Virus record (IMG/VR): IMGVR_UViG_3300019935_000003 | Location: 1 to 56,659 of that record | Direction: 5' to 3' (one strand) | DNA length: 56,659 nucleotides | Origin: a virus | Part shown: positions 4,355-56,625 of the stretch, one piece after another | Numbering within the stretch: the stretch's first letter is position 1 | How the letters are laid out: the number at the start of each line of letters is the position of its first letter | Made by a program: the position numbers and the translations under genes | The notes under the pieces: generated by a model | What the model saw: only the letters and a program-made list of their open reading frames with translations | What the model was told of the DNA's origin: nothing | Database searches by the model: none

Positions 4355-4387
4355 TAACCTTTTCCTATATAATAAAACAAGTATGTA

Positions 4388-4416: not shown

Positions 4417-4431
4417 AGCGAATAAACACCC

Positions 4432-7259: not shown

Positions 7260-7311
7260 GAAATCACTTTATAGGAAAACGCAACACATCAAGAAAAAAG
7301 GGCTTTTAATT

Positions 7312-8745: not shown

Positions 8746-8774
8746 TACATTTATTTAAGTCAATTAAATTTTTT

Positions 8775-8835
8775 AACAATTTATTTTAAGAATTTTAAAT
8801 TATTAGGTTGACTTAAATATTAAGGAGCGTATAAT
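8775..8835 (+). promoter_or_regulatory. Promoter cassette copy 2 (TTGACT-16-TATAAT)
   Basis: The UP-like tract, ATTAGGTTGACTTAAAT and TATAAT (8830-8835) match the family, but the spacer is 16 bases and the N10 segment differs. It drives the J-domain gene through a leader of about 65 bases. Confidence 0.8.
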
Positions 8836-8907
8836 ACTACACATGTTAAAGATAAAGCCGCCCACAACGGGAAGGCGCAAAACCAGCGAAAGCAAGGTAA
8901 TTAAAAC

Positions 8908-10176: not shown

Positions 10177-10237
10177 ACAATTTAATTTAAAAAAATTAGA
10201 TTATTTGGTTGACTTAAATTTATAGCTACTCTATAAT
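10177..10237 (+). promoter_or_regulatory. Promoter cassette copy 3 (TTGACT-17-TATAAT)
   Basis: The UP-like tract, TTATTTGGTTGACTTAAATT and TATAAT at 10232-10237 follow the family pattern. The -10 region is embedded in an inverted repeat TATAG-N5-CTATA (10221-10235), also found in copy 4, which may be a binding site for a common regulator. Confidence 0.85.
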
Positions 10238-10314
10238 GTAATACATACTAGAGAAAACAAAGCAACTATGTACTTATTCTAGTTAACGCACTAACCCTAA
10301 AAAGGAAATTGAAA

Positions 10315-12956: not shown

Positions 12957-13018
12957 AACAATTTAAATTAAAAAATTTATATTATTTGGTTGACTTAAAT
13001 TTATAGCAAGCCTATAAT
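12957..13018 (+). promoter_or_regulatory. Promoter cassette copy 4 (TTGACT-17-TATAAT)
   Basis: This copy is close to copies 1 and 3, with the same UP-like tract, TTATTTGGTTGACTTAAATT and TATAAT at 13013-13018. TATAG-N5-CTATA overlaps the -10. The leader (ATGAAGTCACTTTATAG...) is nearly the same as downstream of copy 1. It drives the recombination operon. Confidence 0.85.
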
Positions 13019-13064
13019 GAAGTCACTTTATAGAAAAACGCAGCACACCAAAAGGCTCATTATT

Positions 13065-15959: not shown

Positions 15960-16556
15960 ATGAAGAAACATAGAGTTAAGAAGCAGAGAAAAAAGCCACC
16001 TGCGGTTACTAAAAAGAGCGTGGTAGGTTGCAAAATATCTTTAGAGAAAACCGATGATCTGACTACTTCTGCTATAAAGGCAATTCAATCACTTCCTGAA
16101 AGTGGTGTTGTTGTGTTTTATCAGGCAGGCGTTGATCGGAGTGTTATTGATGAAATAAAAAAGAAAGTTAAATACACTAATGGAAGTTATGAATACAAGA
16201 TAGATTCTTTTTACAAAAAGCAGGGGTTCGTAGCGTCTTTCTTGAGAGCAAAGCTTTTATTTAGTCGTATAAATCGAATTTTATTTGTACTTCATTGCGG
16301 CAGTGATGCAGATGGGAAGTTGCTTAAGGTATTTCAAGATGAAGTGGATTGCTCTATGGGTGAGCATGATGTGCGACTTGATATTGTATGCCATAAAAGT
16401 GCAAGAGCTAGATTAAAGAAAGGTTTTGAAGGAAAGGTTTTTGTATGTCTTAATTCTGGAAAAAGAAAAGGCATAAAAGTTAGCTCTGGTAAGCCACCAG
16501 AAAATATATTTATCACAAACATAGGTGAGCAAAGTGGCAAACCCATCACAAATTAA
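15960..16556 (+). CDS. Hypothetical early protein (198 aa), basic N-terminus
   Basis: The first 20 residues are strongly basic (KKHRVKKQRKKPP). The remainder alternates strands and helices (SGVVVFYQAGVDRSVIDEIKKK, RILFVLHCGSDADG, VFVCLNSGKRKG). No known family is evident. The ATG at 15960 has AAAGGA upstream. The 3' end overlaps the ProQ start by 32 bases, indicating translational coupling. A nucleic-acid-associated role is suggested by charge only. Confidence 0.6.
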   Translation: MKKHRVKKQRKKPPAVTKKSVVGCKISLEKTDDLTTSAIKAIQSLPESGVVVFYQAGVDRSVIDEIKKKVKYTNGSYEYKIDSFYKKQGFVASFLRAKLLFSRINRILFVLHCGSDADGKLLKVFQDEVDCSMGEHDVRLDIVCHKSARARLKKGFEGKVFVCLNSGKRKGIKVSSGKPPENIFITNIGEQSGKPITN

Positions 16557-17067
16557 AAACAGAAATCGCCGTATTGCATTAGGGCTTAATTTTCTAGCTC
16601 AAAGATTCCCCGCTGCTTTTGCTGCTGAAAAAGTTAATGCATTTTGTATTGGCATTCATGAGCAAATGCAAGAGGAATTAAAGGGGGAAACATTACCTGA
16701 AGGCGTTACTGTTTCCGCAATAAAACAAGCTTTGTACGCATACTGCAACAAATATGCATACATGAAAGCCAAGGGAAAAGTAGGCAACCCGCGTGTGAAT
16801 TTATGGGGGCATGTTGTGGGAGAAGTTACAGAGCAAGAAGTACTACTCCACAACATGGCGCGTAAAGCTAAAAAGCAAGCCTTAGCAGAAAAGAAGAAAA
16901 AGGCAGCAACCGCCAATAAGGCAAAGCAGCAGCAAGCAAAGCAAGTGCAGGAAAAAAAGGCTGTTAAAAAGCCTATTGCAGCTAAAAAGCAAGCTGAAAA
17001 AGTAGTACCTAACACGCCAATCATCAAGAAAAAGAAACGTCGTACTTTATATGTGGGTGCTGCGTAA
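16525..17067 (+). CDS. ProQ/FinO-family RNA chaperone
   Basis: Residues 15-118 follow the ProQ/FinO domain: LNFLAQRFPAAF, IGIHEQMQEEL, IKQALYAYCNKYAYMK, then GNPRVNLWGHVVGEVTEQE. The C-terminal 60 residues are a lysine/alanine/glutamine-rich tail ending in KKKKRRTLYVG, resembling the basic extensions that help these proteins bind RNA. The start is GTG (16525 or 16534). ProQ/FinO proteins bind structured RNAs and modulate sRNA-mRNA pairing. A phage-encoded copy could control phage antisense RNAs or interfere with host sRNA networks. Confidence 0.87.
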   Translation: MSKVANPSQIKNRNRRIALGLNFLAQRFPAAFAAEKVNAFCIGIHEQMQEELKGETLPEGVTVSAIKQALYAYCNKYAYMKAKGKVGNPRVNLWGHVVGEVTEQEVLLHNMARKAKKQALAEKKKKAATANKAKQQQAKQVQEKKAVKKPIAAKKQAEKVVPNTPIIKKKKRRTLYVGAA

Positions 17068-18626: not shown

Positions 18627-19973
18627 ATGTATATAGCATTTGATAAAGCAACAAATAAGCCTGTTATCTCTGATAGAGAGGGTGCCATAAAAGATAAAAA
18701 TTTAGATATAATAGGACTTAGCGGCAAGGAGATGCCAGAAGAACTATTACCCAATCTAAAGGTAATGCTTGGTAATATTGATATAGAGAGCATTGAAGAT
18801 AATAAGAATTACCTTCATAAGCTAAGAGCAGATAGTGAAGTAAGGAAAAATTCTAATCTAGTTTGCCCTTTGTGTGAGGAAAAGGTTTTCCCTAAGAGGA
18901 ACGAAAAAAGCAACAAATACTTTTTTTCTCATCATCCTAATAATGGTTCCCATTGTCCTTTTAGAGGAAAGGGCGGTAAAGAAGGTTATCAAAGATGGTG
19001 GTATCACGCAAACAGAACATCTTCGCAGCATATAGAAATGCAGAATTTTATTGGGGAGTACTTAAAAAAAGACTCTAGTAACTTCAGTGATGTAAAAGTA
19101 GAGAGTCGTTATGTAGGTAAACACTCCAGCCCAAAAACAGAGAAGGAAGCGAAAGCGTGGCGTTTTCCTGATGTGATAGCTACATCTAATAATAACAATC
19201 TAAAAAACCCCGTAAATATAATTTTTGAGGTTCAAATATCCCCAGTAGCTCCGAAAATCATAGCGGAAAGAACTGGCTACTACAAAGATAGAGGGGATTA
19301 TATAGTCTGGGTTCTTTCTAGCTTCCTAAAAGATCATCGCTCATTTAAAGATGATATATTTTACACAAACAATAGAAATGCTTTTGTGCTCTCTGAAGAA
19401 GCAATGAGTGAGACTATTAAAACTGGGGTATTGCACTTTGAAGTTTATTATGATGAATGTTGCTACAAGGAGGGTCATGTTTTAGTAAAACATGCTAAAA
19501 AAGTAGTACCTATTCATGACCTATGTTATTACCAAGGTGGCTTAGTTATATATAAAGGATATGAAGAATCTATCCTAAAAGTAAAGCAGGAAAAGGCTTT
19601 AGATGAACAAGAAAGGGAAAAGAAAAGGCTGGATTTTGCAAGAGAGTTTTGGTCTAACTTCAAGATTACTATGAACTTTAACGGCAACACTAGAAACCTA
19701 TACACTGCTGACTTTTACCAAGAAAAAGTTGCACGTATTGCATTCACAGCATGGAATAACGAGGATAATTTTAATGTTGGGTTAAATGGGGAAAACTCCT
19801 ATATTTATAGAAATCGCAAGAAAGGAGAGAATAGCAGATCCCCTGATTTTATAGGCAGCATGGATACCAGCGGCGCAGGTCAACGCTTGAATATAGGTAA
19901 AATCCCCGTTGCAATTTGGGTTCGTGATGGGTGTATAAATCTTGTTTCTAATTTGGGGTATAGAAATAAGTAG
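18627..19973 (+). CDS. CoiA-like nuclease with zinc finger
   Basis: Residues 78-112 form a zinc-type module (CPLCEEKVFPKR...YFFSHHP...HCPF), as in CoiA-related proteins. A PD-(D/E)XK core follows: WRFPDVIA with D182, IIFEVQIS with E201 and Q203, and RTGYYKDRGDYIVWVL. The remaining 200 residues contain a charged helix and a beta-rich C-terminal region. CoiA was first described in competence, and related proteins occur in phages and defence loci. It probably acts on DNA. It stands apart from the recombination operon after a terminator and is followed by a small coiled-coil gene. Confidence 0.7.
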   Translation: MYIAFDKATNKPVISDREGAIKDKNLDIIGLSGKEMPEELLPNLKVMLGNIDIESIEDNKNYLHKLRADSEVRKNSNLVCPLCEEKVFPKRNEKSNKYFFSHHPNNGSHCPFRGKGGKEGYQRWWYHANRTSSQHIEMQNFIGEYLKKDSSNFSDVKVESRYVGKHSSPKTEKEAKAWRFPDVIATSNNNNLKNPVNIIFEVQISPVAPKIIAERTGYYKDRGDYIVWVLSSFLKDHRSFKDDIFYTNNRNAFVLSEEAMSETIKTGVLHFEVYYDECCYKEGHVLVKHAKKVVPIHDLCYYQGGLVIYKGYEESILKVKQEKALDEQEREKKRLDFAREFWSNFKITMNFNGNTRNLYTADFYQEKVARIAFTAWNNEDNFNVGLNGENSYIYRNRKKGENSRSPDFIGSMDTSGAGQRLNIGKIPVAIWVRDGCINLVSNLGYRNK

Positions 19974-37515: not shown

Positions 37516-39708
37516 TTAAAGCTCTTCTATTTCAACAGTTAAAAGCCCTGTTGTATTAGAAACAGAATTATTCAAGTCACAGTTATAAAACACACTATCA
37601 TTTAAAATTGTGTACTTATTATTGGTATCGTCAGTGGTTGACTGATAGGAGTAGTTATAAGAGCCGCTTTCCCCTTCAGATAAGTTACTGCAACGTAATC
37701 GGCTTGTGTCGTACACTTTGACACCTAAATCTGTTTGTCGATTAGTCCATGCTGCAATCTGTAAAGAGCGACGTAAGAAACCACCTAATGTGTATGTGCT
37801 GCCACTACTGTTTATTGTCGTGACTTCACGCCCTGCCAAGTTGACCGCGCTAATCTCTTGCCAGTCAAAAATCCCTTTTAAATTATCATCATGTACGTTA
37901 ATCGTGTTGATAAAGCGTGTATTATTATTTTGCCCTTGCCAGTTTCCAATAAGTTCACCTGCATCTTCGACAACATCAATTGATGCATTTAGTAAACGTT
38001 GTGTAGAATTAAGTTGTACCGTGTAACTAGGAACACTTGTACCCATATTCCCGCCACTAGCAAGACGCGAAAAAGGCAAGGAAACCGATAATTCAGGCAA
38101 TGTATGAGCAATATTTACAACAGTACTGCGCGTTGTTACTGCACTGTTGGCTGTACGCGTAGCCTTCATTGTTAAGTTGGGCGTATCAATGTTGTAGCCC
38201 CCACCATTGCGTGTCACGGCAAGCTGGGAGGGGGTAGGCGATTCTATTAATAATTCAGAATTTGAAGAGAATGCTGTGGCGGTGTCTGCATTGATCACAC
38301 TGTGAAACACAGTTGCCTGCTCACTATCTTTTAATGCTTGCTGACCAGTTGGGTATTCTGTATTTATAAAGTCGATGCTAGGGTGCAAGTTATTGACATT
38401 TAAGACATGTATACCATTATCACCACCATGTTCTGCTGTGTTGTACATATCAGAACTTGATCCTGTTGAGTCAGTCACATTAAGTACAGCCCCTAGCTGC
38501 TGCAATGTATTACCTTTATCAGCAACTGTGACCGTAAATGTATGGACTGTGTCTTCACTTGCTGTATGCGTTACGGCTTTTAGTGCTTCAGCATTAAATA
38601 CTTGCACCATCTCAACAGGTTCTGACGCGATCACTTTTAAGAGGAATGTATCCCCTTCTTTTAATTCTGTTTGCCCTACTGGATATTCACCAGTGAAATA
38701 AGCATTTAAAATTTTAGGCTTAGATTTCATGGTAACCGTGGCAACATCTTCACCACCGTTAGACTTGACCGCTTTAATATCAAATGTTTGTAGGCTTGCG
38801 GGAATCTCTAAATCAATCACACCACGATAAAGCAGCGGGCTATCAGTACCTGACATTGTTACCGTTTCACCGTTCACCTCAACAACAGGCACATAATTCA
38901 CACCGCTCATGGCATCAACTGTTACACGAATTAGGCGCGTGTCAGATTGGCAAGTTTCAAGCGTTTTGCCTTGACTGCTGAATACTTTAGAGCCAACATT
39001 TCCAGAACCTTGTGGCTCAATATTCGTAATAAAAACACCACCTTGGTTTGTTGTTTCGGTAGGTGCTGTGGGTTCTGTAGGCGTTGGTGCAGTAGGTGCA
39101 CTGGTTACTGTGTTAGGCATAGTGTTGCAACTTGATTTCGCTTGGCAGTTTGGTTGATCATAAAACGTAGCAGGTGAACGCCCATGAAATTTATCCATCA
39201 CATTCTGTGTAAGCCGTTTTGGTTTTCCACATACAAAAATACGACTTGAATTATCAAGTTGCTTTTCTGTAACTGGCAATAAATTTATGTCACTATTAGC
39301 AATTTCTTTTAAGCGTTTTAGAGCTTTTTCGTAACGCTTTAGGACATCTTCAGCAACTGCACCAGACCCGCCACCATGCAGATAGTAGTAAGCAATATCA
39401 CAAGATATGCCGCTAATCATTGCGGGAACTGGTGCGGGTAAAGGTGTTTGATATTTCTTAAAAAGGTACGAGTCCACATCGCTATCAGCACGCTGGCAAG
39501 ACCATGACAACACACGCTTAGCAGATAAAAGCGCGGCATTTTCTTCTTCAGAATTACCGACCGTGTTTAGATCACAAATAGCTTTATAGAAAAATGCTTC
39601 AGTTAACACATAGGGTTTATCGTCTTTTGGCTTAAAGCATAAGTCTTTTAAAGAGCTAGGAAACTCTAAAGACATATATTCAAAAGTTGCATAAACCCCT
39701 GTGTACAT
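37516..39708 (-). CDS. Mu gp36-like head-tail connector fused to Ig-like domains
   Basis: Residues about 30-185 match the DUF1320/gp36 family: YVLTEAFFYKAICDL...VDSYLFKKYQTPL...ISCDIAYYYLHGGG...VLKRYEKALKRLKEIANSDINLL. A Pro/Thr-rich linker (196-222) leads to about 500 further residues with repeated beta-sandwich-like segments (for example LIRVTVDAMSG, GDTFLLKVIASEPVEMV, HTFTVTVADKG). Normal gp36 proteins are near 150 residues, so this is a fusion with Ig-like modules that would be displayed at the neck or on the capsid. Confidence 0.75.
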   Translation of the reverse strand: MYTGVYATFEYMSLEFPSSLKDLCFKPKDDKPYVLTEAFFYKAICDLNTVGNSEEENAALLSAKRVLSWSCQRADSDVDSYLFKKYQTPLPAPVPAMISGISCDIAYYYLHGGGSGAVAEDVLKRYEKALKRLKEIANSDINLLPVTEKQLDNSSRIFVCGKPKRLTQNVMDKFHGRSPATFYDQPNCQAKSSCNTMPNTVTSAPTAPTPTEPTAPTETTNQGGVFITNIEPQGSGNVGSKVFSSQGKTLETCQSDTRLIRVTVDAMSGVNYVPVVEVNGETVTMSGTDSPLLYRGVIDLEIPASLQTFDIKAVKSNGGEDVATVTMKSKPKILNAYFTGEYPVGQTELKEGDTFLLKVIASEPVEMVQVFNAEALKAVTHTASEDTVHTFTVTVADKGNTLQQLGAVLNVTDSTGSSSDMYNTAEHGGDNGIHVLNVNNLHPSIDFINTEYPTGQQALKDSEQATVFHSVINADTATAFSSNSELLIESPTPSQLAVTRNGGGYNIDTPNLTMKATRTANSAVTTRSTVVNIAHTLPELSVSLPFSRLASGGNMGTSVPSYTVQLNSTQRLLNASIDVVEDAGELIGNWQGQNNNTRFINTINVHDDNLKGIFDWQEISAVNLAGREVTTINSSGSTYTLGGFLRRSLQIAAWTNRQTDLGVKVYDTSRLRCSNLSEGESGSYNYSYQSTTDDTNNKYTILNDSVFYNCDLNNSVSNTTGLLTVEIEEL

Positions 39709-40226
39709 TATTGTTTCCCTTCTTTTTCAGAATCAGGAATGGCTTCTTTTAACACTTTCACAGCATCTTGTACTGCTGCTACTGCCTCCAAAGCATCGGC
39801 TATTTTTTCAATATCGATACCTTGAACTGCATCATTAACTTTTTCAGCTTCAGGTGCTTCTTTTGGCTGTGGGGTATTAGATACAAAAGCATTGATATCA
39901 ATCCCTGTCTTCTTGTGTGCAGCACTAAAAATAAGACGCTTTACAGTATCAATTCCTACAAGCGAAATACCGACAACAACACCAAATAAAAGCGGTGCTT
40001 CTGCTGCAATATCAATTTTAAGGAAATGAAATGCTAAGACACCGATACCCGTCGCCACTACACTATTCGACAGTGCAAGAATAAGAATACCGTTCCACTC
40101 TAAATGTGCGTGTGACTTATGGACGCGTGGAATGAAGGCAACAAAACCAGCCAGTACAACAAGAAAAGCGGGTAAGTATTGTTCTAATGAGCTAAGGAGT
40201 TTTTCAGGCATATCCATAGACTCCAT
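39708..40226 (-). CDS. Three-helix membrane protein, holin candidate
   Basis: Hydrophobic segments lie at residues about 18-34, 45-68 and 76-95, followed by a long charged cytoplasmic tail with an acidic helix rich in alanine and valine. Length and topology fit class I or related holins, and no other holin stands out. It lies between the capsid and gp36-like genes, and its ATG overlaps the capsid stop by one base. A holin function is a suggestion only; no endolysin lies nearby. Confidence 0.5.
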   Translation of the reverse strand: MESMDMPEKLLSSLEQYLPAFLVVLAGFVAFIPRVHKSHAHLEWNGILILALSNSVVATGIGVLAFHFLKIDIAAEAPLLFGVVVGISLVGIDTVKRLIFSAAHKKTGIDINAFVSNTPQPKEAPEAEKVNDAVQGIDIEKIADALEAVAAVQDAVKVLKEAIPDSEKEGKQ

Positions 40227-41263
40227 TAGCTCATCTTGGCGCGTACAAGAGCTTTAGGGCGATGACAAAACAGTAAGCGGTTACTCTCTGTTTCCACAAC
40301 AACATTACGTGCTTTTTGCGGATCTGAATGATCTAACCCTTGGCTGGCATAAAGAGGTTTACCAAGTGTGTTTACTTCAGAAATTAAGTTAGCAGGGGCT
40401 TGGTAATCAAAAAATGTATTTGAAGTGCCATCAGGGTATAAAATTGCTTCGCCGTCTGGGATTGTTTCCAACTCTTGACCATTTTTACTTTTGAATTTAG
40501 TTTTCTGAACTTGAAATGTAATACCGCCAAATGTAAAACCATCACTAACGCGATCACCTAGTCGAGCCTGTGCTTTTTCATATCCACGATACACTTCAAC
40601 AACGCTTTCATGCTCAACAAATGCATCAAAAAAGCTTCGAGAACAAAGTGCTCTGACACCTGTCATGCGCTCATTTTGCAAGCCTTCATAAACTTTTTGA
40701 TACGCGTTGTCGCACATGCTACGAACTTTTGTTGTGCTAACATTTAACTTGAAATTCACAACCTGCTGCGCAATCTTGTATTCACTAAACAGATCAATAA
40801 ATTCTGTACCCTCACCATCTACAATCCGACCTTTCAAGCACCCAATCATCATAAATTCAAGTGTAAATCTATGAGAATTAACAAGAACACTTAATTTTTG
40901 ATTCATTAAGTTTGCCAGCGACTCAAGATTGTTTGGGTTGTTGGGGTTGTTATAATTCTGCAATTCTTGCACTGAAATGTTTGTGTCATCTGTAAAATGA
41001 GGCACTTCTATATAGCGTCTACGCTGCGTACTTTTTCCACTAGACTTTACACGCGGGGCTTGTCGGTCTGTAAAAGCTAATACACCAGAACGCTCTTCAA
41101 TTTCACGCACAGAAAATGATGTTGTGCTGATAGGTGAAGGCGTAAAAACACTTAATAAATTTAAGCTGTTATCGACACTATCCATATAAGAGATAGTTTC
41201 TGTTAAATTAGCGTGGCTGAAATGATCGCTATCAAAGGGGTTTTGTACTAGGGGCTGTGGCAT
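40226..41263 (-). CDS. Major capsid protein, lambda gpE-like
   Basis: The 345-residue protein has the gpE-family pattern: YIEVPHFTDDTNISVQELQN, SHRFTLEFMMIGCLKGRIVDGEG, FIDLFSEY, and later ALCSRSFFDAFVEH with TFGGITFQVQ. This is an HK97-fold capsid subunit forming the icosahedral shell. It is encoded after the lambda D-like decoration gene with a two-base gap, as in lambda. Confidence 0.92.
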   Translation of the reverse strand: MPQPLVQNPFDSDHFSHANLTETISYMDSVDNSLNLLSVFTPSPISTTSFSVREIEERSGVLAFTDRQAPRVKSSGKSTQRRRYIEVPHFTDDTNISVQELQNYNNPNNPNNLESLANLMNQKLSVLVNSHRFTLEFMMIGCLKGRIVDGEGTEFIDLFSEYKIAQQVVNFKLNVSTTKVRSMCDNAYQKVYEGLQNERMTGVRALCSRSFFDAFVEHESVVEVYRGYEKAQARLGDRVSDGFTFGGITFQVQKTKFKSKNGQELETIPDGEAILYPDGTSNTFFDYQAPANLISEVNTLGKPLYASQGLDHSDPQKARNVVVETESNRLLFCHRPKALVRAKMS

Positions 41264-41265
41264 TA

Positions 41266-41616
41266 TTAAATTACCTTAATATCTAAATCTTTGAGCTGAC
41301 CAGTGATTTGCACCGTTTCTTCAGGTGTTACAGCTTCAGGAAAGTTCAAGCAATCGCCATACACCAGTGCAGTACCGTTAATCAGCGCGGGGCACGATGC
41401 AGTGGACGTAAACGTTTTATTTTTAATGCAAAGCCCAGCTACAGGGCGCGTGTCAAGTTCTGCTAAAACAACAGGAATCATTAACCCTGCATCGTTTTTT
41501 ACCAAAATGTCGCCATTTTTATATTCACCAGCGGCAAATAAAACATTTTCACGGCAAAAATCTGGGTGTACTTCAAAGTTAATTATATTTTTAATTTCTG
41601 ACTCAACGACTGGCAT
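41266..41616 (-). CDS. Head decoration protein, lambda gpD-like
   Basis: A 116-residue beta-rich protein with GDILVKNDAGLMIPVV...RPVAGLCIKNKTFTS and an ending typical of the gpD trimer-forming family. It stabilises the expanded capsid. It lies between the protease/scaffold gene and the capsid gene, the lambda order. Confidence 0.85.
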   Translation of the reverse strand: MPVVESEIKNIINFEVHPDFCRENVLFAAGEYKNGDILVKNDAGLMIPVVLAELDTRPVAGLCIKNKTFTSTASCPALINGTALVYGDCLNFPEAVTPEETVQITGQLKDLDIKVI

Positions 41617-41618
41617 AA

Positions 41619-42026
41619 TTAAGCATCCCCGCGTTGTGCTTTGGCAGCAGATAATAAAACATTAGTCTGCGCTGGCTGTTGAACACCAGCGGGCGGCTGT
41701 TCATAATTACTTAAGTGCTGCGCTCCTAGCTGCACGGATTTCTGCTGCTGCAACTGAGACATAAGAGAGTCCACAACCTTTAGTTGATGACTACTAAAAC
41801 TCATAAGGCAGTCAGTAATATTTCCCTCAAGCTTAATATCGAACTTGTCGGCGAGAGCTGTTAACTCCATTTTCTTTTTATCATTTTCCATCGCTTGCTT
41901 ATCAGCATTTGCTTTTTCAAGCTCTTGTTTTAAACGTTCATTTTCTGCTGATAGCTCAATAGAATTATCAGTGGCTGGCTGTTCTGTTTTTTGCTGCGGT
42001 TGAATTGTCGCGTTGGGTTTTGGCAT
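41619..42026 (-). CDS. Nested scaffold protein (135 aa) within protease gene
   Basis: An internal ATG at residue 196 of the protease is preceded by TAGGGGAAAAC, an excellent ribosome site at correct spacing. It would yield a 135-residue helical protein (MPKPNATIQPQQ..., then a coiled coil ERLKQELEKANADKQ). This is the lambda C/Nu3 arrangement, where scaffold is made in excess from an internal start of the protease gene. Confidence 0.75.
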   Translation of the reverse strand: MPKPNATIQPQQKTEQPATDNSIELSAENERLKQELEKANADKQAMENDKKKMELTALADKFDIKLEGNITDCLMSFSSHQLKVVDSLMSQLQQQKSVQLGAQHLSNYEQPPAGVQQPAQTNVLLSAAKAQRGDA

Positions 42027-42611
42027 GTTTTCCCCTAAATTTTGGTTTTGTTTATGGTAAGTTTCTGCAAAAGTATCTCTGTCGGCAGGATCAATTGTAA
42101 AAGCAATATGCTTAATAGTGGCATTGCTGATAATCACACCATCATTGAAATCTATACCATTAACCTTGATGGGGTCTGCATTTTTACCAACAGCCGTAAC
42201 CGTTTGATACTCAAAGCCAATACTAAAACGCCACGGCGCATCCTGCTTAGATTCGTTGTAAATGTTTTCCGCATTTTCATTCTGGTGAAAAAATTCACCG
42301 CTCACATGAACTTTGTCTTTTATATCTACTTTTGACACGCCGACACGTTTAGAACTCATATGGTCGAGCAGAGCAAAGATTTTCCCTGTATGTGTTTCTT
42401 CTACTTTTGTAGTGCTTAAGTCGACAATAAAGCGTTGGTATTCTTTACCGTCTACCCACATCCATCTATCGCTGACAACACCACCCGAATAGCCGACACC
42501 ATCAAATCTTTTTTGCTCAACACCTTTTTCATCAGGCTTTGCAGCAGAAAAATTAAATTCCCCCCCTATACAGTCAAGACGAAGGGATTGAACGGGATCG
42601 GGTTGTGGCAT
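41619..42611 (-). CDS. Prohead protease with C-terminal scaffold
   Basis: The N-terminal half shows a head-maturation protease pattern: FDGVGYSGGVVSD, IDLSTTK-like strand RFIVDLSTTK, then FALLDHMSSKRVGVSK with a probable catalytic histidine, and DAPWRFSIGFEYQ with a serine. After residue 195 comes a coiled-coil, Gln/Lys/Glu-rich scaffold region. An internal ATG with a strong ribosome site can produce the scaffold alone. It is the first gene of the late operon. Confidence 0.8.
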   Translation of the reverse strand: MPQPDPVQSLRLDCIGGEFNFSAAKPDEKGVEQKRFDGVGYSGGVVSDRWMWVDGKEYQRFIVDLSTTKVEETHTGKIFALLDHMSSKRVGVSKVDIKDKVHVSGEFFHQNENAENIYNESKQDAPWRFSIGFEYQTVTAVGKNADPIKVNGIDFNDGVIISNATIKHIAFTIDPADRDTFAETYHKQNQNLGENMPKPNATIQPQQKTEQPATDNSIELSAENERLKQELEKANADKQAMENDKKKMELTALADKFDIKLEGNITDCLMSFSSHQLKVVDSLMSQLQQQKSVQLGAQHLSNYEQPPAGVQQPAQTNVLLSAAKAQRGDA

Positions 42612-42662
42612 GACGTATTACACCTATTTTTTATCTGAAATGATATGTAAAAGAATGTAGAA

Positions 42663-42678
42663 AACAATTATAATTGTT
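42663..42678 (-). promoter_or_regulatory. Palindrome with TATAAT ahead of late operon
   Basis: AACAATTATAATTGTT is a perfect 16-bp palindrome in the divergent gap, 52 bases before the protease ATG. Read leftwards it contains TATAAT, with a poor -35 (TTAGCT) 16 bases upstream. This fits a late promoter needing an activator or relieved from a repressor binding the palindrome. Confidence 0.45.
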
Positions 42679-42764
42679 AAAATGTAGCAGCTAAAAAATG
42701 ATACAGCAAAAAAACCTGTGCCTAGGTGTGCATATGAGCAACTAAAATAAGATGGAGTTAAAGC

Positions 42765-43031
42765 GTGCTGAAAAGTGAAGTGATAAATCAACTATCTGAA
42801 AAGATAGATTTTTTAACTAAAAATGGGTACAGTTATTATGCAATATCAAAATTTATAGGGTGTGCACGAACAACAGTTGCAAGACTGCACAAAAAGGAGC
42901 TTAAGGACGTGGGGGGAGATGTTATAGTCGGTTTGTGTTTGTATTTTGACATGGAATTTCCATGCATACAGCACAGGAAAGATTTTCTGAAGCGCGTAGA
43001 TATAGCGCAAAGAAAAAAATACCTGGCATAG
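42765..43031 (+). CDS. Small helix-turn-helix protein (88 aa)
   Basis: Residues 20-42 form a likely helix-turn-helix (YSYYAISKFIGCARTTVARLHK). The gene starts with GTG after GGAG and is divergent from the late operon, so it is a candidate late regulator that could bind the palindrome between them. It has a short C-terminal helix and a basic end. Confidence 0.6.
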   Translation: MLKSEVINQLSEKIDFLTKNGYSYYAISKFIGCARTTVARLHKKELKDVGGDVIVGLCLYFDMEFPCIQHRKDFLKRVDIAQRKKYLA

Positions 43032-43052
43032 AGTAAACTATGCCTAAGCATT

Positions 43053-43886
43053 TTATATATTAATGGTGTATTGTGAGGCAATAAACTTAAAAACAAACTC
43101 GTCGAACTCGAATCGTTTTAAGTCTAGCCTATTTCTAAGTAGATAATTAGAGAGCTTTGCTTCTTTGTCCAAGTACATTGTGTAGTTTTTGCAGTCATTT
43201 TCTTTATATTCGACTTGCCCTCTCCCTGCTGACGATAAACCTTCTTTTATATCAGTAAAGCGTTCAAGACAGTCAAAACCCGATATAAAATCGACAGCAG
43301 AAAGGTATAAATCTCCTATTTCAACCCCTTCTGTTTTGGATATAACGCTTAGTTTTACATAAAGGTAAGTTGGTATAGAAACAAAATCCGCCTTATGAAT
43401 TTTACTTGTTTTTCTACCTCTGCGCTCTTCAGAAAAAGCAGATTCATTTATAAATTCAACGCTTGTTTTTTCCACTCTTAAACTACTGTGTCTTTCTATT
43501 ACACGAAAAGCCATATATGAGTTTAATACGTTTGCAGTGAGGTACAGTCCTTCGCGTAATACAGTCATGCAATCACGAAAAGTTTTCGTAGTAATGCTAT
43601 TTAGGACATACGCTCCTTTTTTTCTTGTTGAGTACTCAATACTGTCTTTGTATTGCGCAAAGTCTTTGTCGGACTGAAAGTCTCCCTTATTATCAAATTC
43701 AGCAATATATTCAGCAAAAATTAAATCAATTGGTGCTCTCCCATAGTACGCTGCGATAACAGTTAAACGTCCTCTATACTCTTCGGGAATAGACATATTA
43801 AGAGACCTGACTGGCTCAATATACTCTACGTTTCTCCTTCTTTTTATTTCATTAACTCTTTCAAGCAGCTTATCAAAACCTTCCAT
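43053..43886 (-). CDS. Putative tetra-ribbon-helix-helix DNA-binding protein
   Basis: Four segments of the 277 residues share a strand-helix-helix pattern like RHH units: 28-62 (LNMSIPEEYRGRLTVIAAYY), 93-128, 167-200 (FVSIPTYLYVKLSVISKTEG) and 234-272, at intervals of about 67 residues. RHH proteins bind DNA as dimers; four in one chain would give two pseudo-dimers. It follows the FtsK-like gene by 78 bases and has its own promoter inside a 12-bp inverted repeat. The repeat assignment is mine from inspection and should be treated as a hypothesis. Confidence 0.55.
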   Translation of the reverse strand: MEGFDKLLERVNEIKRRRNVEYIEPVRSLNMSIPEEYRGRLTVIAAYYGRAPIDLIFAEYIAEFDNKGDFQSDKDFAQYKDSIEYSTRKKGAYVLNSITTKTFRDCMTVLREGLYLTANVLNSYMAFRVIERHSSLRVEKTSVEFINESAFSEERRGRKTSKIHKADFVSIPTYLYVKLSVISKTEGVEIGDLYLSAVDFISGFDCLERFTDIKEGLSSAGRGQVEYKENDCKNYTMYLDKEAKLSNYLLRNRLDLKRFEFDEFVFKFIASQYTINI

Positions 43887-43910
43887 AATTATTTTTTCTC
43901 CATAATATAC

Positions 43911-43956
43911 TGTGTATTTAAGTCATAATTATAATTTATTTATCTTAAATACACAA
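43911..43956 (-). promoter_or_regulatory. Promoter framed by a 12-bp inverted repeat (candidate autoregulatory operator)
   Basis: TTGTGT (43956-43951) and TATAAT (43933-43928) are separated by 17 bases on the minus strand. TGTGTATTTAAG and its exact complement (43911-43922 and 43944-43955) frame the promoter, one arm over the -35 and the other at the transcription start. It lies just before the tetra-RHH gene. Confidence 0.75.
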
Positions 43957-43964
43957 TGTGTTTT

Positions 43965-46553
43965 TTATATCGCTGCTGCCTTTTTTTCTTCTCTTAAAGC
44001 CTTTAATGCTTTGGAAACTGTTCCCTTGTGTGTGTCGAGAGCTACAGCAATTTTAGACTGTGTTACTTCTCCTTTTGCGGAAAGTATTTTGTATACCTCT
44101 ATTACTTTCTGCTTTGTCGTCATACCAGCCGATTCCTTAATAACTTGAATTGGATCAGTTTCCACTTCTTTACTTTTAATAACTGGAGTTTCCTCCTTAA
44201 CTCCCAAGTTTCCACTGGCTACCGTTTCCACTTTGTTTTCCTCACTTCTCTGTGGCTCTGTGTGTTGAGCTGTATTTTCAATATTTGAAGGCTGGTTTCC
44301 AATGTTTCCAGTGGAAACAGTAGAAACACCCTTGGGAGTTGTTGTAAAACTACCACTATCGGCAAAGTTCATGCCATAATATAAGGGAGTCACACCAAAA
44401 TCACGAGGATATTTATTTGCTTTGTTAATGGTAGTATTTGCATTACTAATACTTGGAATGTCTTTTTTATCATGTGGTTTATTAAAAAACCCATCTTTTT
44501 TCTGTGTGGTTTCCATAGTTTCCACTTGAGTTTCCCGCATGGTTTCCATTGATTTAGGGGTTTCCACAGGGGAAACTTTTTCCTTTAAAGGTCTTTCGTT
44601 ACTGGCAACACTGGAAACAACAGGGGTATCTTTCGGTAATGGTTTACGTAAAACTTTCTGTAATTTTTCACGCAATAAAGGTGTAAAACCATGGTGCCGT
44701 GCTTCTAATTTATCAGCAATGTCGTATGTGTCTTGCTCGGATATAAACATTGTTTGAACCTTAATAAGATTCTTACCTTCAAATGCAAATAACCCTTGAC
44801 CCTGCCCCGCTAAATCTTCAGCCCCCTTGTAACCGATAACAGGAACAGATTCACGCCACGAATTTACACGTAATGATAGCTTTGCTGAATTCCCTTTAGC
44901 ATAGCGCGGTACAGTTTCTGCACTGGGAATCTGCGTGGAGAGTATTAAATGTATTCCTGCTGCACGCGCCTTACCTGCTAATTCATTAAGCACCCAAGCT
45001 GCTGTTTGTTCACTATCAGCATTCCCCTTATCATCTAATTCCACTTTTATTTTACTTGAACCAAGCCCTGCAACCTCGTCAACGACAAAGAAAATATAAG
45101 GCATTTTTTCTGCTGAAAACTTAGCGTGAAACTTTTGGATATTAGAGCAACGATTACTACTTAAGCGGCGCAAACGTTTAAGCATTTCATTGTATGTAAA
45201 TACAAGTAAAGCACAGCTATCTTGTACTGTATCTGAGAATCCTATTGTGTGTGGTAAATTTTGGTAGCGGGATAATTCAACGCCACACTTAAGGTCATTT
45301 AAAATTATGTTGACTTGCTCAGGTGAATGATTTTCTAAAATCTGCGTGATATAGGAGTGCATTGCCACTGACTTTCCACTATTAGTCATACCACTAAAAA
45401 TAAGGTGGCAAAAATCTATAAATGATGCATTTAGTTGCTCACCACTACCGATAGCTTTACCTATGCATACAGTAAGTTGTTTTTGCTCTTGCTGCATTTT
45501 TTGATAATGTTTGGGCAAGTAATCAATGATCATGCCTTCCTTTTTTTCTATTTCAGATTGCGCTACTTCAGATGCTACAAGTTTACCAATCTGATCATCA
45601 TCTTTATTTTCAAGCGTAGGGGGGGGGGTGTGACTTTTTACCCAGCCTTGAGAATTACCAGTGTCGCCTTTATTTTTGCCTTTCTTTTTCTTTTCCTGAA
45701 TAACAGCAACGCCCCCTGAAAAATGCGGCGCAAAAAAGCAGAAACTACCAGCAAGCTCGCACAGTATCGCCATAAACCACAATAGGTAAGTTATTGAATC
45801 ATTATAAGTTGCATCACTCCCAAGAGCGTTAAGGATGGACTGTAACATGGTAAATGCGTCATTTCGCTCTTCATTTATGTTAACCGAATTTTTAGATATA
45901 CTATTGAAGTTTTCCCGCGCCTTTTGCTCACGCTCTAATGCTAATTCATAAAGCTTTTTGTTCTCTATAATTTCCAGTGTGTTCTGGTAACTATGGCAGT
46001 ATTTTTTATAATAAAATGAACTGCTTTTAGAAGGCTCACAAGTTTCCGTCATTGCTGCAACAGTTTGCCCTGTGTACTTTCCTGCACTATTTTCAGCAGC
46101 TTGGTTTAATATGTTTTCAGCGTTAATATAAAGTTGCTCAATAGTTTCCCCCCCCCTGTATGTCACAAGCTTGTTAACTTCTTTTCTTGCCTCATCGAGT
46201 TCATTTCTAGCCCCCTCATAAAGCAAACTCTCACGTTTAAGGGTTTCATGACGCTCTTGTATTGTATCGCGCGTATAGCCTGAAAATGAGACGAGAGAAA
46301 CAGCGGTTAATGCCAGCCAGACAAGGAATGTAAGCGCAAAAGAAACAGGCTTTTCATTCGCCCGATGGTATGCCATTAAGTATGCGGTTGAATACTTCAG
46401 TAAATCGAATGCAACACCCATTGCTGCAACAACAAGGCTAAATTGAATGTAAAAATTGAAATTAAAAAATATAGATATAGCACCTAGCACTATACCAATA
46501 AGTGTCATGAAAAATGCAGGGGAATCCCTAAAAAAAGAAGTCTCTTTAGACAT
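43965..46553 (-). CDS. Membrane-anchored FtsK/SpoIIIE-like DNA translocase
   Basis: N-terminal transmembrane segments at about 11-30, 36-52 and 70-90 are followed by a helical extramembrane domain (95-250) and a further segment at 253-278. The motor has Walker A SGMTNSGKS (387-395), Walker B IFFVVDE (487-493) and the LILSTQIPSAE segment (537-546). A long low-complexity linker leads to a winged-helix end (811-855), similar to an FtsK gamma domain. It would pump double-stranded DNA at the membrane. A 9-G tract (codons 133-135) and a 10-C tract (codons 310-312) make it prone to slippage. Phage-borne membrane FtsK proteins are uncommon. Confidence 0.85.
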   Translation of the reverse strand: MSKETSFFRDSPAFFMTLIGIVLGAISIFFNFNFYIQFSLVVAAMGVAFDLLKYSTAYLMAYHRANEKPVSFALTFLVWLALTAVSLVSFSGYTRDTIQERHETLKRESLLYEGARNELDEARKEVNKLVTYRGGETIEQLYINAENILNQAAENSAGKYTGQTVAAMTETCEPSKSSSFYYKKYCHSYQNTLEIIENKKLYELALEREQKARENFNSISKNSVNINEERNDAFTMLQSILNALGSDATYNDSITYLLWFMAILCELAGSFCFFAPHFSGGVAVIQEKKKKGKNKGDTGNSQGWVKSHTPPPTLENKDDDQIGKLVASEVAQSEIEKKEGMIIDYLPKHYQKMQQEQKQLTVCIGKAIGSGEQLNASFIDFCHLIFSGMTNSGKSVAMHSYITQILENHSPEQVNIILNDLKCGVELSRYQNLPHTIGFSDTVQDSCALLVFTYNEMLKRLRRLSSNRCSNIQKFHAKFSAEKMPYIFFVVDEVAGLGSSKIKVELDDKGNADSEQTAAWVLNELAGKARAAGIHLILSTQIPSAETVPRYAKGNSAKLSLRVNSWRESVPVIGYKGAEDLAGQGQGLFAFEGKNLIKVQTMFISEQDTYDIADKLEARHHGFTPLLREKLQKVLRKPLPKDTPVVSSVASNERPLKEKVSPVETPKSMETMRETQVETMETTQKKDGFFNKPHDKKDIPSISNANTTINKANKYPRDFGVTPLYYGMNFADSGSFTTTPKGVSTVSTGNIGNQPSNIENTAQHTEPQRSEENKVETVASGNLGVKEETPVIKSKEVETDPIQVIKESAGMTTKQKVIEVYKILSAKGEVTQSKIAVALDTHKGTVSKALKALREEKKAAAI

Positions 46554-46558
46554 AATAT

Positions 46559-46597
46559 AAACCTGTAAAAAAATGTAAAAAACACAATAACAGGTTT
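46559..46597 (-). promoter_or_regulatory. 5' leader hairpin before FtsK-like gene
   Basis: AAACCTGT and ACAGGTTT (46559-46566 and 46590-46597) form an 8-bp inverted repeat. On the mRNA, the downstream arm contains AGG, the only ribosome-site-like sequence eight bases before the ATG. A TATAAT at 46604-46599 would place the start at the first arm, though its -35 is poor. The hairpin could limit translation. Confidence 0.4.
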
Positions 46598-46665
46598 AAT
46601 TATACTACATAAAACAAAAGACAGGAATGTAAAAAGCTTTAATATACAGGCATATAGAGGGAGTA

Positions 46666-46735
46666 TGAAAGGCGTTTGTTATTGCGTTCTACAAAGTCTA
46701 TATATCTAAAAAACAAAGAGAATACACGCCTTTCA
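46666..46735. repeat. Spaced 10-bp inverted repeat TGAAAGGCGT/ACGCCTTTCA
   Basis: The arms lie at 46666-46675 and 46726-46735 in the 394-base intergenic region between the FtsK-like gene and the 46948 gene. No T run follows either arm, so it is not a terminator. It could be a structured RNA or a binding region; apart from the hairpin and promoter described separately, the rest of the gap shows nothing recognisable. Confidence 0.5.
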
Positions 46736-46804
46736 GGGGGTATACATGGTACTTTACACAGAAACATAAGGCAAGCTATGTATTTTATAATTCATACATT
46801 TTTT

Positions 46805-46882
46805 AACATTTAGATTTAAGAAAATAAAATTATTTAAAAAAACAAAAAAGTTATTGACTAATAGGCTATATATGCCTATAAT
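46805..46882 (+). promoter_or_regulatory. Divergent copy of promoter cassette with 19-bp operator
   Basis: TTGACT (46854) and TATAAT (46877-46882) are spaced by 17 bases after an AT-rich tract related to the cassettes. Between and over them lies ATAGGC-N7-GCCTAT, a symmetrical site that would cover the spacer and -10. This is a strong regulated promoter for the following gene. Confidence 0.75.
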
Positions 46883-46947
46883 ATCCCCCAACAAAGCCAG
46901 AAAAAACTTTTTCAAGGCACAAATCCAGCACTAGCGAGAGATAGAAA

Positions 46948-48138
46948 ATGATTACCAAGAAATTAGCAGCGCGCGCAAAACAAATACAAGAACAGTGCTA
47001 TGAAGATTATGGACATCAATATGATGAAAAGGGTAATGAGATTAACAAATTCCATTATTGTGATTGTTTGAAAGAAGCTATTGAGGAGGAAAAAATGGCT
47101 AAAAAATACTTCAAAGACACAAAAGAAGGTGAAAACCTTATTCTAAACATCCCTTTTGAGAAAAACGCAGAAATCAAGAGCCAAGTCATTGAGTACTTAA
47201 AAGAAAAAGGCGTTATACGAGGATACAATGAGTACAGCAAGTACTACTTTTTTGATTTCAATAAACGCATTAATCGCCACTATAAAAAGTGGTATTGGAT
47301 TCACAACAGCGATGTTCAAATGCCAGAACTTCTGTACCCATATTGCCTAAAAGTTCAGCAAGAAAAAGAGCGCATAAAGAAAGAAGAAGAAAATAAAGAA
47401 TACGCTCCTTTCCATAAAGCCGCGGATTTGGAAAAAGAAGGGACTTTAGAGAGCCTTAAAGAGGCTTTGGAAATACGCCAAGAGATGCTGGCAAAGGAAG
47501 GGGATCCAGATAGACAACAAAGCAAAGAATACAGCATTCGAGTCATTGAAGATAAAATTCTTAAGCTTGAAAATCCAAAGGCTTATGAAGAATTACAAGA
47601 GCGCATAAAATGCGAAGGTGAAGCGCGCGAACAGGAGTACAAGAAGCAACAGCAAGAGCGGGAAGATAAAATTAAAGCCAAGTATACGAAAAAAGAGGAT
47701 AGCTTATTAGAGGGTATTGGCAAAATAGAGGGTTCTATCAATAATGATGATGCTATTAGCTTTATTTTCAGCTACTACAACAAGAGTGTTAAATACCTTG
47801 AAAATGAGGCAAAAGAAGAGCTTGAACGTGACACAGAAAACCAAGAATTTTCAATAAAATACGGTGACCTTGAGCCGCATCGTGCGCAAGATTTTAAATT
47901 AAAAATACACACTCTTGAAGAGAAAGTTAGCAAAACACTTTGGGAGTGTCGTTTTGGAAACATGGATGTAACAATGGACTGTGTAGAAATAGATAACTCA
48001 CCTGTTCATGTAAAACCTCTCTACAATTTGCTTTGTGAGCACCAAGGTTTTAGTGAAATGAAGCGATTACAAGCAGCTTACGACAAACTTTTCAGTGAGC
48101 TTTGCAAGAAAGTAAAACAGAAACTAGAGCAACACTAA
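46948..48138 (+). CDS. Highly charged coiled-coil protein (396 aa), unknown
   Basis: No family was recognised. The first 130 residues include a compact region with cysteines (QEQCYEDYGH...HYCDCLKEA) and an aromatic segment (YYFFDFNKRINRHYKKWYWIH). The middle is a long Glu/Lys/Gln-rich coiled coil (residues 150-260), then a helical C-terminal domain. It has the strongest promoter in this region, with a built-in operator. It may partner the translocase system or be an early host-takeover protein. Confidence 0.65.
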   Translation: MITKKLAARAKQIQEQCYEDYGHQYDEKGNEINKFHYCDCLKEAIEEEKMAKKYFKDTKEGENLILNIPFEKNAEIKSQVIEYLKEKGVIRGYNEYSKYYFFDFNKRINRHYKKWYWIHNSDVQMPELLYPYCLKVQQEKERIKKEEENKEYAPFHKAADLEKEGTLESLKEALEIRQEMLAKEGDPDRQQSKEYSIRVIEDKILKLENPKAYEELQERIKCEGEAREQEYKKQQQEREDKIKAKYTKKEDSLLEGIGKIEGSINNDDAISFIFSYYNKSVKYLENEAKEELERDTENQEFSIKYGDLEPHRAQDFKLKIHTLEEKVSKTLWECRFGNMDVTMDCVEIDNSPVHVKPLYNLLCEHQGFSEMKRLQAAYDKLFSELCKKVKQKLEQH

Positions 48139-48192: not shown

Positions 48193-48660
48193 ATGAATAT
48201 AGAAAAGCTAAGAATCTCACTTTACACACATAGACAAACCAACAATACAAGCCAGAATAATTTTTCAAAAAGGTGTGGGTTGTCCCCTAGAAAATTTCGT
48301 TCATTGACTTCACCTAATGAAGAAAAAAGAGAGAAGGTAACAGTATTGCAAGAAAATTCAATACTATACATTCTATACCTAATTGAAAATAAAGATATAG
48401 ATTGCAAGGATTTATCGACTGCAAATAGTATCAATGTGGATGAAATTAGGAATGATTTACTAAAGCTAAAAATAAGTCAAAATAGTTTTGCAAAGCTTGC
48501 AGGAATGACATCACGCAGAATTCGAGCATTACTATCTCCAACCATAACAAAAAGATCATTACCTCGTATTTTAGAAGCTAATTCAATGCTTTACACTCTC
48601 ATGCAAATAAAAAATGGTAGTATGGAATACAAGGTATCTGAACGTCCACGTACCATCTGA
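48193..48660 (+). CDS. Protein with two tandem helix-turn-helix-like units
   Basis: Two halves of about 65 residues resemble each other: NNFSKRCGLSPRKFRSLTSP...ENSILYILYLIENKD and NSFAKLAGMTSRRIRALLSP...ANSMLYTLMQIKNGS. Each includes a helix-turn-helix-like pattern. This suggests an internal duplication giving a monomeric two-site DNA-binding protein. It lies 55 bases after the coiled-coil gene and before a terminator, so the two form one operon. It is a candidate regulator of the 46854 promoter. Confidence 0.6.
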   Translation: MNIEKLRISLYTHRQTNNTSQNNFSKRCGLSPRKFRSLTSPNEEKREKVTVLQENSILYILYLIENKDIDCKDLSTANSINVDEIRNDLLKLKISQNSFAKLAGMTSRRIRALLSPTITKRSLPRILEANSMLYTLMQIKNGSMEYKVSERPRTI

Positions 48661-55253: not shown

Positions 55254-56348
55254 ATGCCAAAAAAAATAGGAGAAATGATACATATTGTATTTTATGTAAA
55301 TGGAAAACGTATGCAACGCACAACCGGGTTAAAATTTAACTCAAGAAATTGGCGTAAAGCTGCAAAAATGGAAACAGAAGAAAGAAGTAAAGCATTAAAA
55401 GATAAGCCATTTTTAAGCATTCCCTCTGAAAAAGAGCGTGCAAATAGATTAACAGTAGAACGTGTTTTAAGTGAATACTTAGAATACCTTGAGTTGAGAG
55501 TCAGATCAGGCGACGAAAAAAAACGCGTATTTGATGAAAAAAAGCGTAACTCTTTAAAATTTGAAGCATTATTTCCTGTAATTATTTTTGAACTGACAAA
55601 AAAAAATGTTTTGGAGCATATAAATACTAGGCAATTAGAATTTAACGAGACAAATGATAATGTAAACAGGCAGTTATCCGTTCTTTCATTGGCTATACAA
55701 CATGCACAAAAATGGCATGGCGTAATAATAAGCAATGTAACAACGGGGTTAAGGTTGAAAAGAAACTCTCCTAGAACTCGACATGCAAGTATTGAAGAAA
55801 TTGAACTGTTATTGTCAGCAGCAAAGAAAAGTGAAAATGTAAAATTATATGATTACGTAGTCATTCTTTTAAATACAGGTATGCGCGTCACAGAGCTGCT
55901 TAGTTTAAAAGAAAGTGAGTTATGTATAGAGGATAGAACAGCGACATTAAAAGACACTAAAAACGGCTCTACGAGAGTAGTTATATTAAATAATAAGGCT
56001 GTTAAATCGTTTAAAAGCCTTTTAGCTATAAAAAAGGCTCAAAGTAAAGGTATTTATAGTCCTTATATATTCCCGTCCGACTCTGAAAAAGGACATGTAT
56101 TATGCTTCAAAAAAAGCTATAACTCAGCGTTAAAAACATCAGGCATAATATGGAAAGGAGAGGATAAATTAACAATGAGGGACTTAAGGACAACATATGC
56201 AACACACGCACTGAACTCAGGTGTACCCCTGAATGTTGTGCAGGGAATGCTGGGGCATAGCAGCCCAGAATTGACAGCTCGTGTATATGCATTTACAAAA
56301 CTATCAGAAGATAAAAATAAAAATATACTGCTAAGATTTAAGATTTAA
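55254..56348 (+). CDS. int: Tyrosine recombinase (phage integrase)
   Basis: The N-terminal half is an arm-binding and core-binding region. The catalytic half has R211 (NTGMRVTELL), K236 (DTKNGST), R312 within TMRDLRTTYATHAL, H335 (MLGHSS) and the nucleophile Y345 (ARVYAFT). The usual first histidine of the HxxR box is R309 here. It would catalyse integration between attP and the tRNA and, with a directionality factor, excision. It lies 185 bases from the attR core and transcribes towards it. Confidence 0.93.
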   Translation: MPKKIGEMIHIVFYVNGKRMQRTTGLKFNSRNWRKAAKMETEERSKALKDKPFLSIPSEKERANRLTVERVLSEYLEYLELRVRSGDEKKRVFDEKKRNSLKFEALFPVIIFELTKKNVLEHINTRQLEFNETNDNVNRQLSVLSLAIQHAQKWHGVIISNVTTGLRLKRNSPRTRHASIEEIELLLSAAKKSENVKLYDYVVILLNTGMRVTELLSLKESELCIEDRTATLKDTKNGSTRVVILNNKAVKSFKSLLAIKKAQSKGIYSPYIFPSDSEKGHVLCFKKSYNSALKTSGIIWKGEDKLTMRDLRTTYATHALNSGVPLNVVQGMLGHSSPELTARVYAFTKLSEDKNKNILLRFKI

Positions 56349-56400
56349 TTTTTTAAAAAAATAAAATTATTTGGTTGACTTATGCGTGTATTTATATAAT
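56345..56400 (+). promoter_or_regulatory. Promoter cassette copy at right end, facing the att site
   Basis: AAAATTATTTGGTTGACTTA is shared with the other cassettes, as is part of the leader (ATGAAAATCACTT). A TATAAT at 56395 is only 14 bases from the -35, so the promoter is weaker or degenerate; another TATAAT lies at 56465. In the lysogen it points into the tRNA antisense. After circularisation it would point at the replication genes at 239. Confidence 0.5.
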
Positions 56401-56532
56401 AATGAAAATCACTTGTTAATTACTTGTTTTTTTAAAAAGTTGGTAAAAAATTGAGAAACAAGGCTATAATTCACATCAACAGTGTAAATTATTAGTATTT
56501 GTAATTAAGGCAAACATAATTAAAACAGTAAC

Positions 56533-56593
56533 TTAGCTACTTTGGGGATGGTGGGTCTGGAGTGACTCGAACACTCGACCTGCCGATTATGAG
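56533..56593. other. attR: attR core, identical to attL core
   Basis: This is the second copy of the 61-bp core, offset by exactly 56483 from the left copy. It lies just downstream of the integrase gene and supplies the 3' half of the intact tRNA, so integration leaves the tRNA functional. The DNA to its right is the host 5' half of the tRNA. Confidence 0.9.
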
Positions 56594-56625
56594 TCGGATG
56601 CTCTAACCAACTGAGCTACAGACCC
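56549..56625 (-). tRNA. tRNA with anticodon CAU (elongator Met or Ile2)
   Basis: Read on the minus strand, the sequence folds as a cloverleaf. It has a 7-bp acceptor stem (GGGTCTG with CAGACCC), a GCTC/GAGC D stem, the anticodon loop CTCATAA, a GAGTG/CACTC T stem with a TTCGAGT loop, and an encoded CCA. The outermost anticodon-stem pair is a U-C mismatch. A CAU anticodon fits elongator methionine tRNA, or an isoleucine tRNA read with lysidine; the acceptor stem alone does not decide between them. Its 3' half is the integration site. Confidence 0.93.

Follow-up and report, generated by a model that had tools for sequence, protein, structure and literature searches.

Why should a phage carry, side by side, a gene for a membrane-anchored FtsK-like motor and a gene for an apparently repetitive protein preceded by a palindromic sequence? 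This question is raised by the virus record IMGVR_UViG_3300019935_000003, whose entire length of 56659 bases is the window analysed here, and in which the two genes lie on the minus strand between positions 43053 and 46553, one coding for an 862-aa protein (43965..46553) and the other for a 277-aa protein (43053..43886). An earlier note on this DNA had proposed a dedicated system for membrane-anchored movement, partition or injection-related handling of phage DNA, perhaps acting in a circular episome. The best explanation that we can offer, tentative and not quite reaching the probable, is that these are two accessory prophage genes, encoding a tandem ribbon-helix-helix (RHH)-like autoregulator of four units beside a membrane double-stranded DNA (dsDNA) translocase. 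With regard to the 277-aa protein, the data collected below make it look more like a gene regulator than like a part of a DNA-moving machine.

The 277-aa open reading frame (ORF) falls into two halves of similar sequence. Specifically, the similarity of residues 1-143 to residues 144-277 gave P values of 0.008 with BLOSUM45, 0.016-0.026 with PAM250 and 0.035-0.067 with BLOSUM62, in a test for which three matrices and both local and global modes were tried; self-alignment of the protein gave P 0.07 and an ungapped scan P 0.148, and we regard the internal repetition as suggestive. By combining the half-to-half alignment with AlphaFold2 (AF2) modelling, four candidate strand-helix-helix units can be placed on the chain. 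Unit 1 would span residues 27-66 (43689..43808; RSLNMSIP, helices 35-48 and 52-66), with a predicted local distance difference test score (pLDDT) of 72-80, and unit 2 residues 92-132 (43491..43613; helices 100-114 and 118-132), with a pLDDT of 54-72. The alignment of the two halves pairs unit 3, residues 165-205 (43272..43394), with unit 1, and also places unit 4, residues 233-275 (43062..43190), the poorest of the four. The candidate unit starts are spaced by about 65-73 residues, close to the interval of about 67 residues that had been noticed before.

The full-length single-sequence AF2 model was uninformative (pLDDT 35). When residues 9-143 were modelled with residues 144-277 given as the second row of the alignment, two helix hairpins appeared at the expected places (35-48/52-66 and 100-114/118-132), with an overall pLDDT of 52; the second row being part of the same protein, this model supports, and does not prove, an RHH-like fold. 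A Foldseek comparison of the half-1 model with the PDB ranked the single-chain Arc 1u9p first (probability 0.84), followed by DndE (4lrv) and F TraY (9f0x/y/z and 9f10, the TraY identity being checked by sequence), and then by AvtR (4hv0). Chains with two RHH units made up the top five matches and 11 of the 26 in all. The poor full-length model led to unrelated folds, a rough control only, the two models differing in quality and length. TraY, DndE and AvtR each hold two RHH units in a single chain (PMC12117103, PMC10853773, PMC5569661), and it is this fold, also that of the engineered single-chain Arc, which the half-1 model matches; whereas these double-RHH chains hold two units, the 277-aa protein would hold four. 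A model of moderate confidence thus supports an RHH-like fold for half 1, and half 2, whose units 3 and 4 are proposed from a weak half-to-half similarity, would presumably share it. The protein may thus be pictured as a DNA-binding regulator made of two fused double-RHH (Arc-dimer-like) folds, with four RHH-like units per chain.

Several results weigh against this assignment, and they are the ground of its strongest rival, namely that the 277-aa protein is an unrelated helical phage protein whose RHH-like matches arise from helix hairpins in a weak model. The protein matched nothing in Pfam, PHROG, NCBIfam or the PDB sequences, and the RHH families of Pfam matched neither the whole protein nor its single units. 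A position-specific scoring matrix (PSSM) built from eight known RHH domains scored its best window no better than shuffled sequences (P 0.18), that window being unit 1 in the correct register, and no sequence similarity was obtained between the 277-aa profile and F TraY. The half-to-half similarity weakens to P 0.067 with BLOSUM62 and comes from a choice of matrices and modes. In addition, DSSP assigns no strand in the half-1 model, the overall pLDDT of the model is low and that of unit 2 is at most 72, and all the Foldseek E-values, at 0.6 or worse, lie above 0.5. On the other hand, the best structural matches are specifically chains of two RHH units and not a mixture of helix hairpins, and in units 1 and 3 the P/G landmarks of RHH domains fall where the proposed units would require them. 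Structure prediction, which the earlier note had put forward as a check, brought out no non-RHH fold, as far as a model with such weak E-values can tell. Its proposal of four RHH units accordingly fares unevenly: sequence profiles do not recover them, units 1 and 2 are indicated by the model, and units 3 and 4 are suggested by the resemblance of the halves. We judge the unrelated helical protein somewhat unlikely. No homologue emerged: tblastn of the 277-aa protein gave two matches at E 2 among phages and none among plasmids, and single-sequence scans for this protein in viral and genome contigs, and for the motor and the capsid protein in viral contigs, found none.

The sequence in front of the 277-aa gene suggests autoregulation. 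An inverted repeat, TGTGTATTTAAG-N21-CTTAAATACACA (43911..43955), lies there, with arms at 43911-43922 and 43944-43955 that are perfect over 12 bp, just as first described; if transcribed, it would form a hairpin with a z-score of -4.2. The chance of a 12-bp inverted repeat is about 0.002 in random sequence like the 78-bp gap between the two genes, and 0.018 in sequence like the region 42600-46950. On the minus strand the repeat reads TGTGTATTTAAG-ATAAATAAATTATAATTATGA-CTTAAATACACA, and a perfect TATAAT lies between the arms. This would be the -10 box (43933-43928) of a candidate promoter (43928..43956, minus strand), read from the sequence, in which a -35 box TTGTGT (43956-43951) lies over the first arm at a spacing of 17 bp; GGAG precedes the start codon of the 277-aa gene. 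The claim of a promoter lying inside the repeat holds for the -10 box, but the -35 box is weak (three matches of six) and the promoter was not picked by a promoter scan. Directly after the gene, an intrinsic terminator (43025..43044, minus strand), recognised by its stem and T-run (fold z-score -4.6), closes the unit. The inverted repeat is a candidate operator, and we infer that the 277-aa protein probably represses its own promoter through these 12-bp arms, which bracket the -10 box. AvtR is described as behaving comparably, repressing the gene that encodes it through sites that resemble inverted repeats (PMC5569661).

The repeat also shares a motif with promoters elsewhere in the phage. The motif TGACTTAAAT, which straddles the second arm (43916-43925, minus strand), has six copies in the window where 0.39 would be expected, all of them outside genes. 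Four of these copies each form the -35 region of a strong promoter; the four promoters, at 7.2, 8.8, 10.2 and 13.0 kb, are near-duplicates of one another and lie 30-37 kb from the 277-aa gene. A longer element, TTATTTGGTTGACTTA...TATAAT, is present in five copies (7208-7263, 8785-8840, 10186-10241, 12967-13022 and 56352-56407), four of which show TTGACT and TATAAT separated by 16-17 bp, and three of which also share about 98 bp including the reading-frame start MKSLYRKTQH; it looks like a repeated early promoter. By the 8.8-kb promoter there is a second, inverted copy of the motif, at 8753. The inverted pair TATTTAAG...CTTAAATA occurs in exactly two places, 8752-8819 and 43911-43955, and these two pairs account for four of the seven CTTAAATA in the window; it is possibly an operator shared by the 8.8-kb and the 277-aa promoters. 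Such a pattern would fit a multi-target regulator better than a lone partition site, and the targets of the 277-aa protein may include, besides its own promoter, the repeated early promoters in which TGACTTAAAT is found, the one at 8.8 kb having the inverted CTTAAATA pair as well. The pattern was noticed after the fact and is partly due to duplication, and three points tell against linking it to the 277-aa protein: four of the six copies of TGACTTAAAT come from one near-duplicated promoter; TGACT is part of the -35 box, so that the motif shared beyond the box is only about TAAAT; and other regulators of the phage (42765, 48193, 11776 and 54138) could equally bind it.

The identity of the motor is firmer. 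The 862-aa protein matches Pfam FtsK_SpoIIIE with an E-value of 3.5e-22 (79.4 bits, the curated cut-off being 24) and PHROG 1358 with 1.2e-56, and the nearest solved structure to its motor domain is that of E. coli FtsK (PDB 2ius, E 1.5e-22). This domain, delimited by the Pfam and PDB matches and by motif reading, covers residues 351-620 (44694..45503), with Walker A GMTNSGKS (388), Walker B FFVVDEV (488) and the sequence STQIPS (539); both Walker motifs are intact, which places the protein in the FtsK/SpoIIIE superfamily. A simple Kyte-Doolittle hydropathy scan predicts three membrane segments at residues 12-30, 34-52 and 70-88 (46290..46520) and a fourth at residues 257-275 (45729..45785), together a predicted N-terminal membrane anchor. 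Residues 89-256 (45786..46289), with cysteines 172 and 186, match no family; the loop charges suggest that they face the periplasm. The membrane FtsK-like motor with Walker motifs of the earlier note is thus borne out. The winged-helix end also claimed for it is right as to the helices, since residues 811-862 (43968..44123) contain a tri-helical, MarR/ArsR-like helix-turn-helix (HTH), with E-values of 7e-5 to 1e-2 against Pfam HTH families when this part was scanned alone, below the family cut-offs. It is wrong as to the wing, which is missing because the chain stops soon past the third helix. We infer a membrane-anchored dsDNA translocase, whose C-terminal HTH would engage DNA at the envelope.

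A reading of this end as an FtsK gamma domain that recognises FtsK orienting polar sequences (KOPS) was rejected. Pfam gave no Ftsk_gamma match in the motor, and its C-terminus did not align to the gamma domain of E. coli FtsK. The search for polarity motifs proposed in the earlier note was fruitless in the phage window: the KOPS-like GGGNAGGG has three sites in 56.7 kb (0 and 3 per strand), which is no excess, GAGAAGGG has none, and no skewed 7-10-mer is strongly enriched. Taken together, the phage motor shares with cellular FtsK/SpoIIIE (E. coli FtsK, 2ius) the motor domain, the Walker motifs, four predicted membrane segments, a long linker and a C-terminal HTH of DNA-binding type, but differs from it by a 167-residue loop between segments 3 and 4 and by the lack of a detectable gamma domain, a wing and a GGGNAGGG excess.

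Phage FtsK-like genes are well known, chiefly from Bacillus and mycobacterial phages. Motors of the same family (PHROG 1358/3551) are found in Bacillus phages and in cluster J mycobacteriophages (Courthouse gp201); those of cluster J resemble the motor described here in having a C-terminal domain unlike the cellular gamma, lack a membrane domain and are of unknown function (PMC3706429). The motors of five annotated phages and of one IMG/VR contig have 0-1 membrane segment, and among 63 further viral motor loci no segment precedes Walker A in 57, three segments being found in a single one. The architecture of the present motor is therefore unusual for a phage. A public record labelled as an Acinetobacter phage, CAKLQH020000030.1, carries ftsK, minCDE and trxB and is a mislabelled host chromosome.

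Do the two genes belong together? They are 78 bp apart on the same strand, with the terminator after the 277-aa gene, and only this adjacency, common strand and shared terminator suggest that their products cooperate. On such an arrangement one could build a two-part machine, in which an RHH-like adaptor loads phage DNA onto the membrane motor, in the manner of TraY/TraM or PcfF-type proteins in conjugation or of a centromere binder in partition. The resemblance of the half-1 model to F TraY would suit it, as would that of the motor domain (E 2.6e-14) to TcpA, the FtsK-like, membrane-associated coupling protein of the conjugative plasmid pCW3 (PDB 6o1x). In phages Pookie and Eoghan the motors adjoin Replic_Relax proteins, not RHH proteins, which shows that a DNA-binding protein of replication type can be the partner of a phage motor. 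In contrast to the TcpA system, this phage has no relaxase or transfer genes among the proteins scanned, some small ORFs lying outside the scan, and neither a type IV secretion system nor ParA/ParM or another par ATPase was matched in this set. Near the gene pair there are no extra operator half-sites and no centromere-like iteration; the half-site recurs instead at the early promoters. Near the pair, the 155-aa product of 48193-48660 (plus strand) looks like another duplicated protein of DNA-binding type, its sequence falling into two HTH-like halves that resemble each other.

Co-occurrence, another check suggested in the earlier note, gave nothing. An FtsK-alignment scan of viral contigs returned 80 loci, 63 of them with a recognisable motor ORF; none of their 528 neighbour ORFs matches the 277-aa protein or its two-half profile, and none is RHH-like, a weak negative, as the RHH profile used misses the 277-aa protein itself and no homologue of the latter was found to track. 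Nor did the motors of six annotated phages have an RHH-like neighbour, and all these tests would miss a protein this diverged. Scanning with a DNA pattern for Walker A yielded two loci, one of them with a motor (26-28% identity), and the 277-aa protein had no match there. At the 160 loci returned by alignment scans for the capsid and terminase, neither the motor nor the 277-aa protein was matched at E 0.05, and 39 full records among these relatives contain no motor match.

The setting of the pair bears on the same point. A direct repeat of about 59 bp, at about 51-110 and at 56535-56592, takes in the 3' part of a tRNA-Met gene (56549-56625) and represents the attachment (att) sites, and a tyrosine integrase gene (55254-56348) adjoins the tRNA-Met/att end. 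Because of these two features the window is a complete integrated prophage, and not the circular episome previously envisaged; its lysogens need no partition because the element is integrated. Partition is disfavoured because the phage integrates and because no multi-copy site or relaxase was found, and the dedicated system of the earlier note, with its partition, episome and injection roles, finds no backing in these data. We consider the two-part machine, in either of its forms, unlikely. A packaging role for the 862-aa protein was likewise rejected, the motor not being needed for this purpose because the phage encodes its terminase elsewhere in the genome.

An equally unlikely alternative would make the pair a moron protecting the lysogen, in which the motor would deal at the envelope with DNA entering the cell, as superinfection exclusion or defence, and the 277-aa protein would do no more than regulate the motor. 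In favour of this, the unit ends in a terminator of its own and is set apart from the late genes by a gap, the motor is absent from the 39 head-gene relatives, and motors of the HerA/FtsK type are a recurrent part of counter-invader systems (PMC10853773). The motor domain is also matched by PADLOC SspH with an E-value of 1.4e-33, but the match is confined to residues 383-615, within a generic motor domain that PHROG 1358 scores better, and the nuclease and sensor domains of the Ssp/Dnd-type SspH/DndH architecture were not found. In addition, no nuclease or other effector is encoded beside the motor, and the sequence has no feature that would mark out a role in defence. Finally, that a four-RHH single chain and a four-segment FtsK motor form an undescribed device, selecting DNA by sequence, pulling it at the envelope and tying its expression to the early promoters through the same protein, strikes us as very improbable.

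Several other features of the prophage may be recorded. It encodes capsid, portal, minor head, terminase and tape-measure proteins; the capsid protein shows 34-36% identity to its counterpart in Wolbachia phage WO and about 30% to the one in vB_VpaM_MAR, the terminase is about 42% identical to a Pseudoalteromonas phage terminase, and the searches brought up no close relative of the phage as a whole. The packaging and head modules are split: about 33 kb separates the terminase and portal/minor-head genes from those for capsid and protease, and the two groups lie in part on different strands (2353-7186 and 40226-42611). Unexpectedly for a 56-kb prophage, residues 223-730 of a 730-aa protein (37516-39708, minus strand) share 38-41% identity with phiKZ 145, a protein from the phiKZ family of jumbo phages that is annotated as tail sheath or assembly, while residues 71-174 of the 730-aa protein match a head-tail adaptor family. 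An RNA-binding protein of the ProQ/FinO family (E 1.3e-15) is encoded at 16525-17067 (plus strand), and a 448-aa protein (18627-19973, plus strand) has DUF6035, DUF7830 and weak CoiA nuclease-like matches.

In conclusion, if the reading of the 277-aa protein as a tandem-RHH-like autoregulator is true, the double-RHH proteins known so far would be joined by a chain of four RHH-like units, and the candidate operator makes its DNA specificity directly testable. With regard to the motor, genes of the FtsK-like kind are frequent in phages that infect Gram-positive bacteria, and those examined mostly lack a membrane anchor; a fully anchored prophage motor, with its large and putatively periplasmic loop, is well suited to the question of what motors of this kind do at the envelope.

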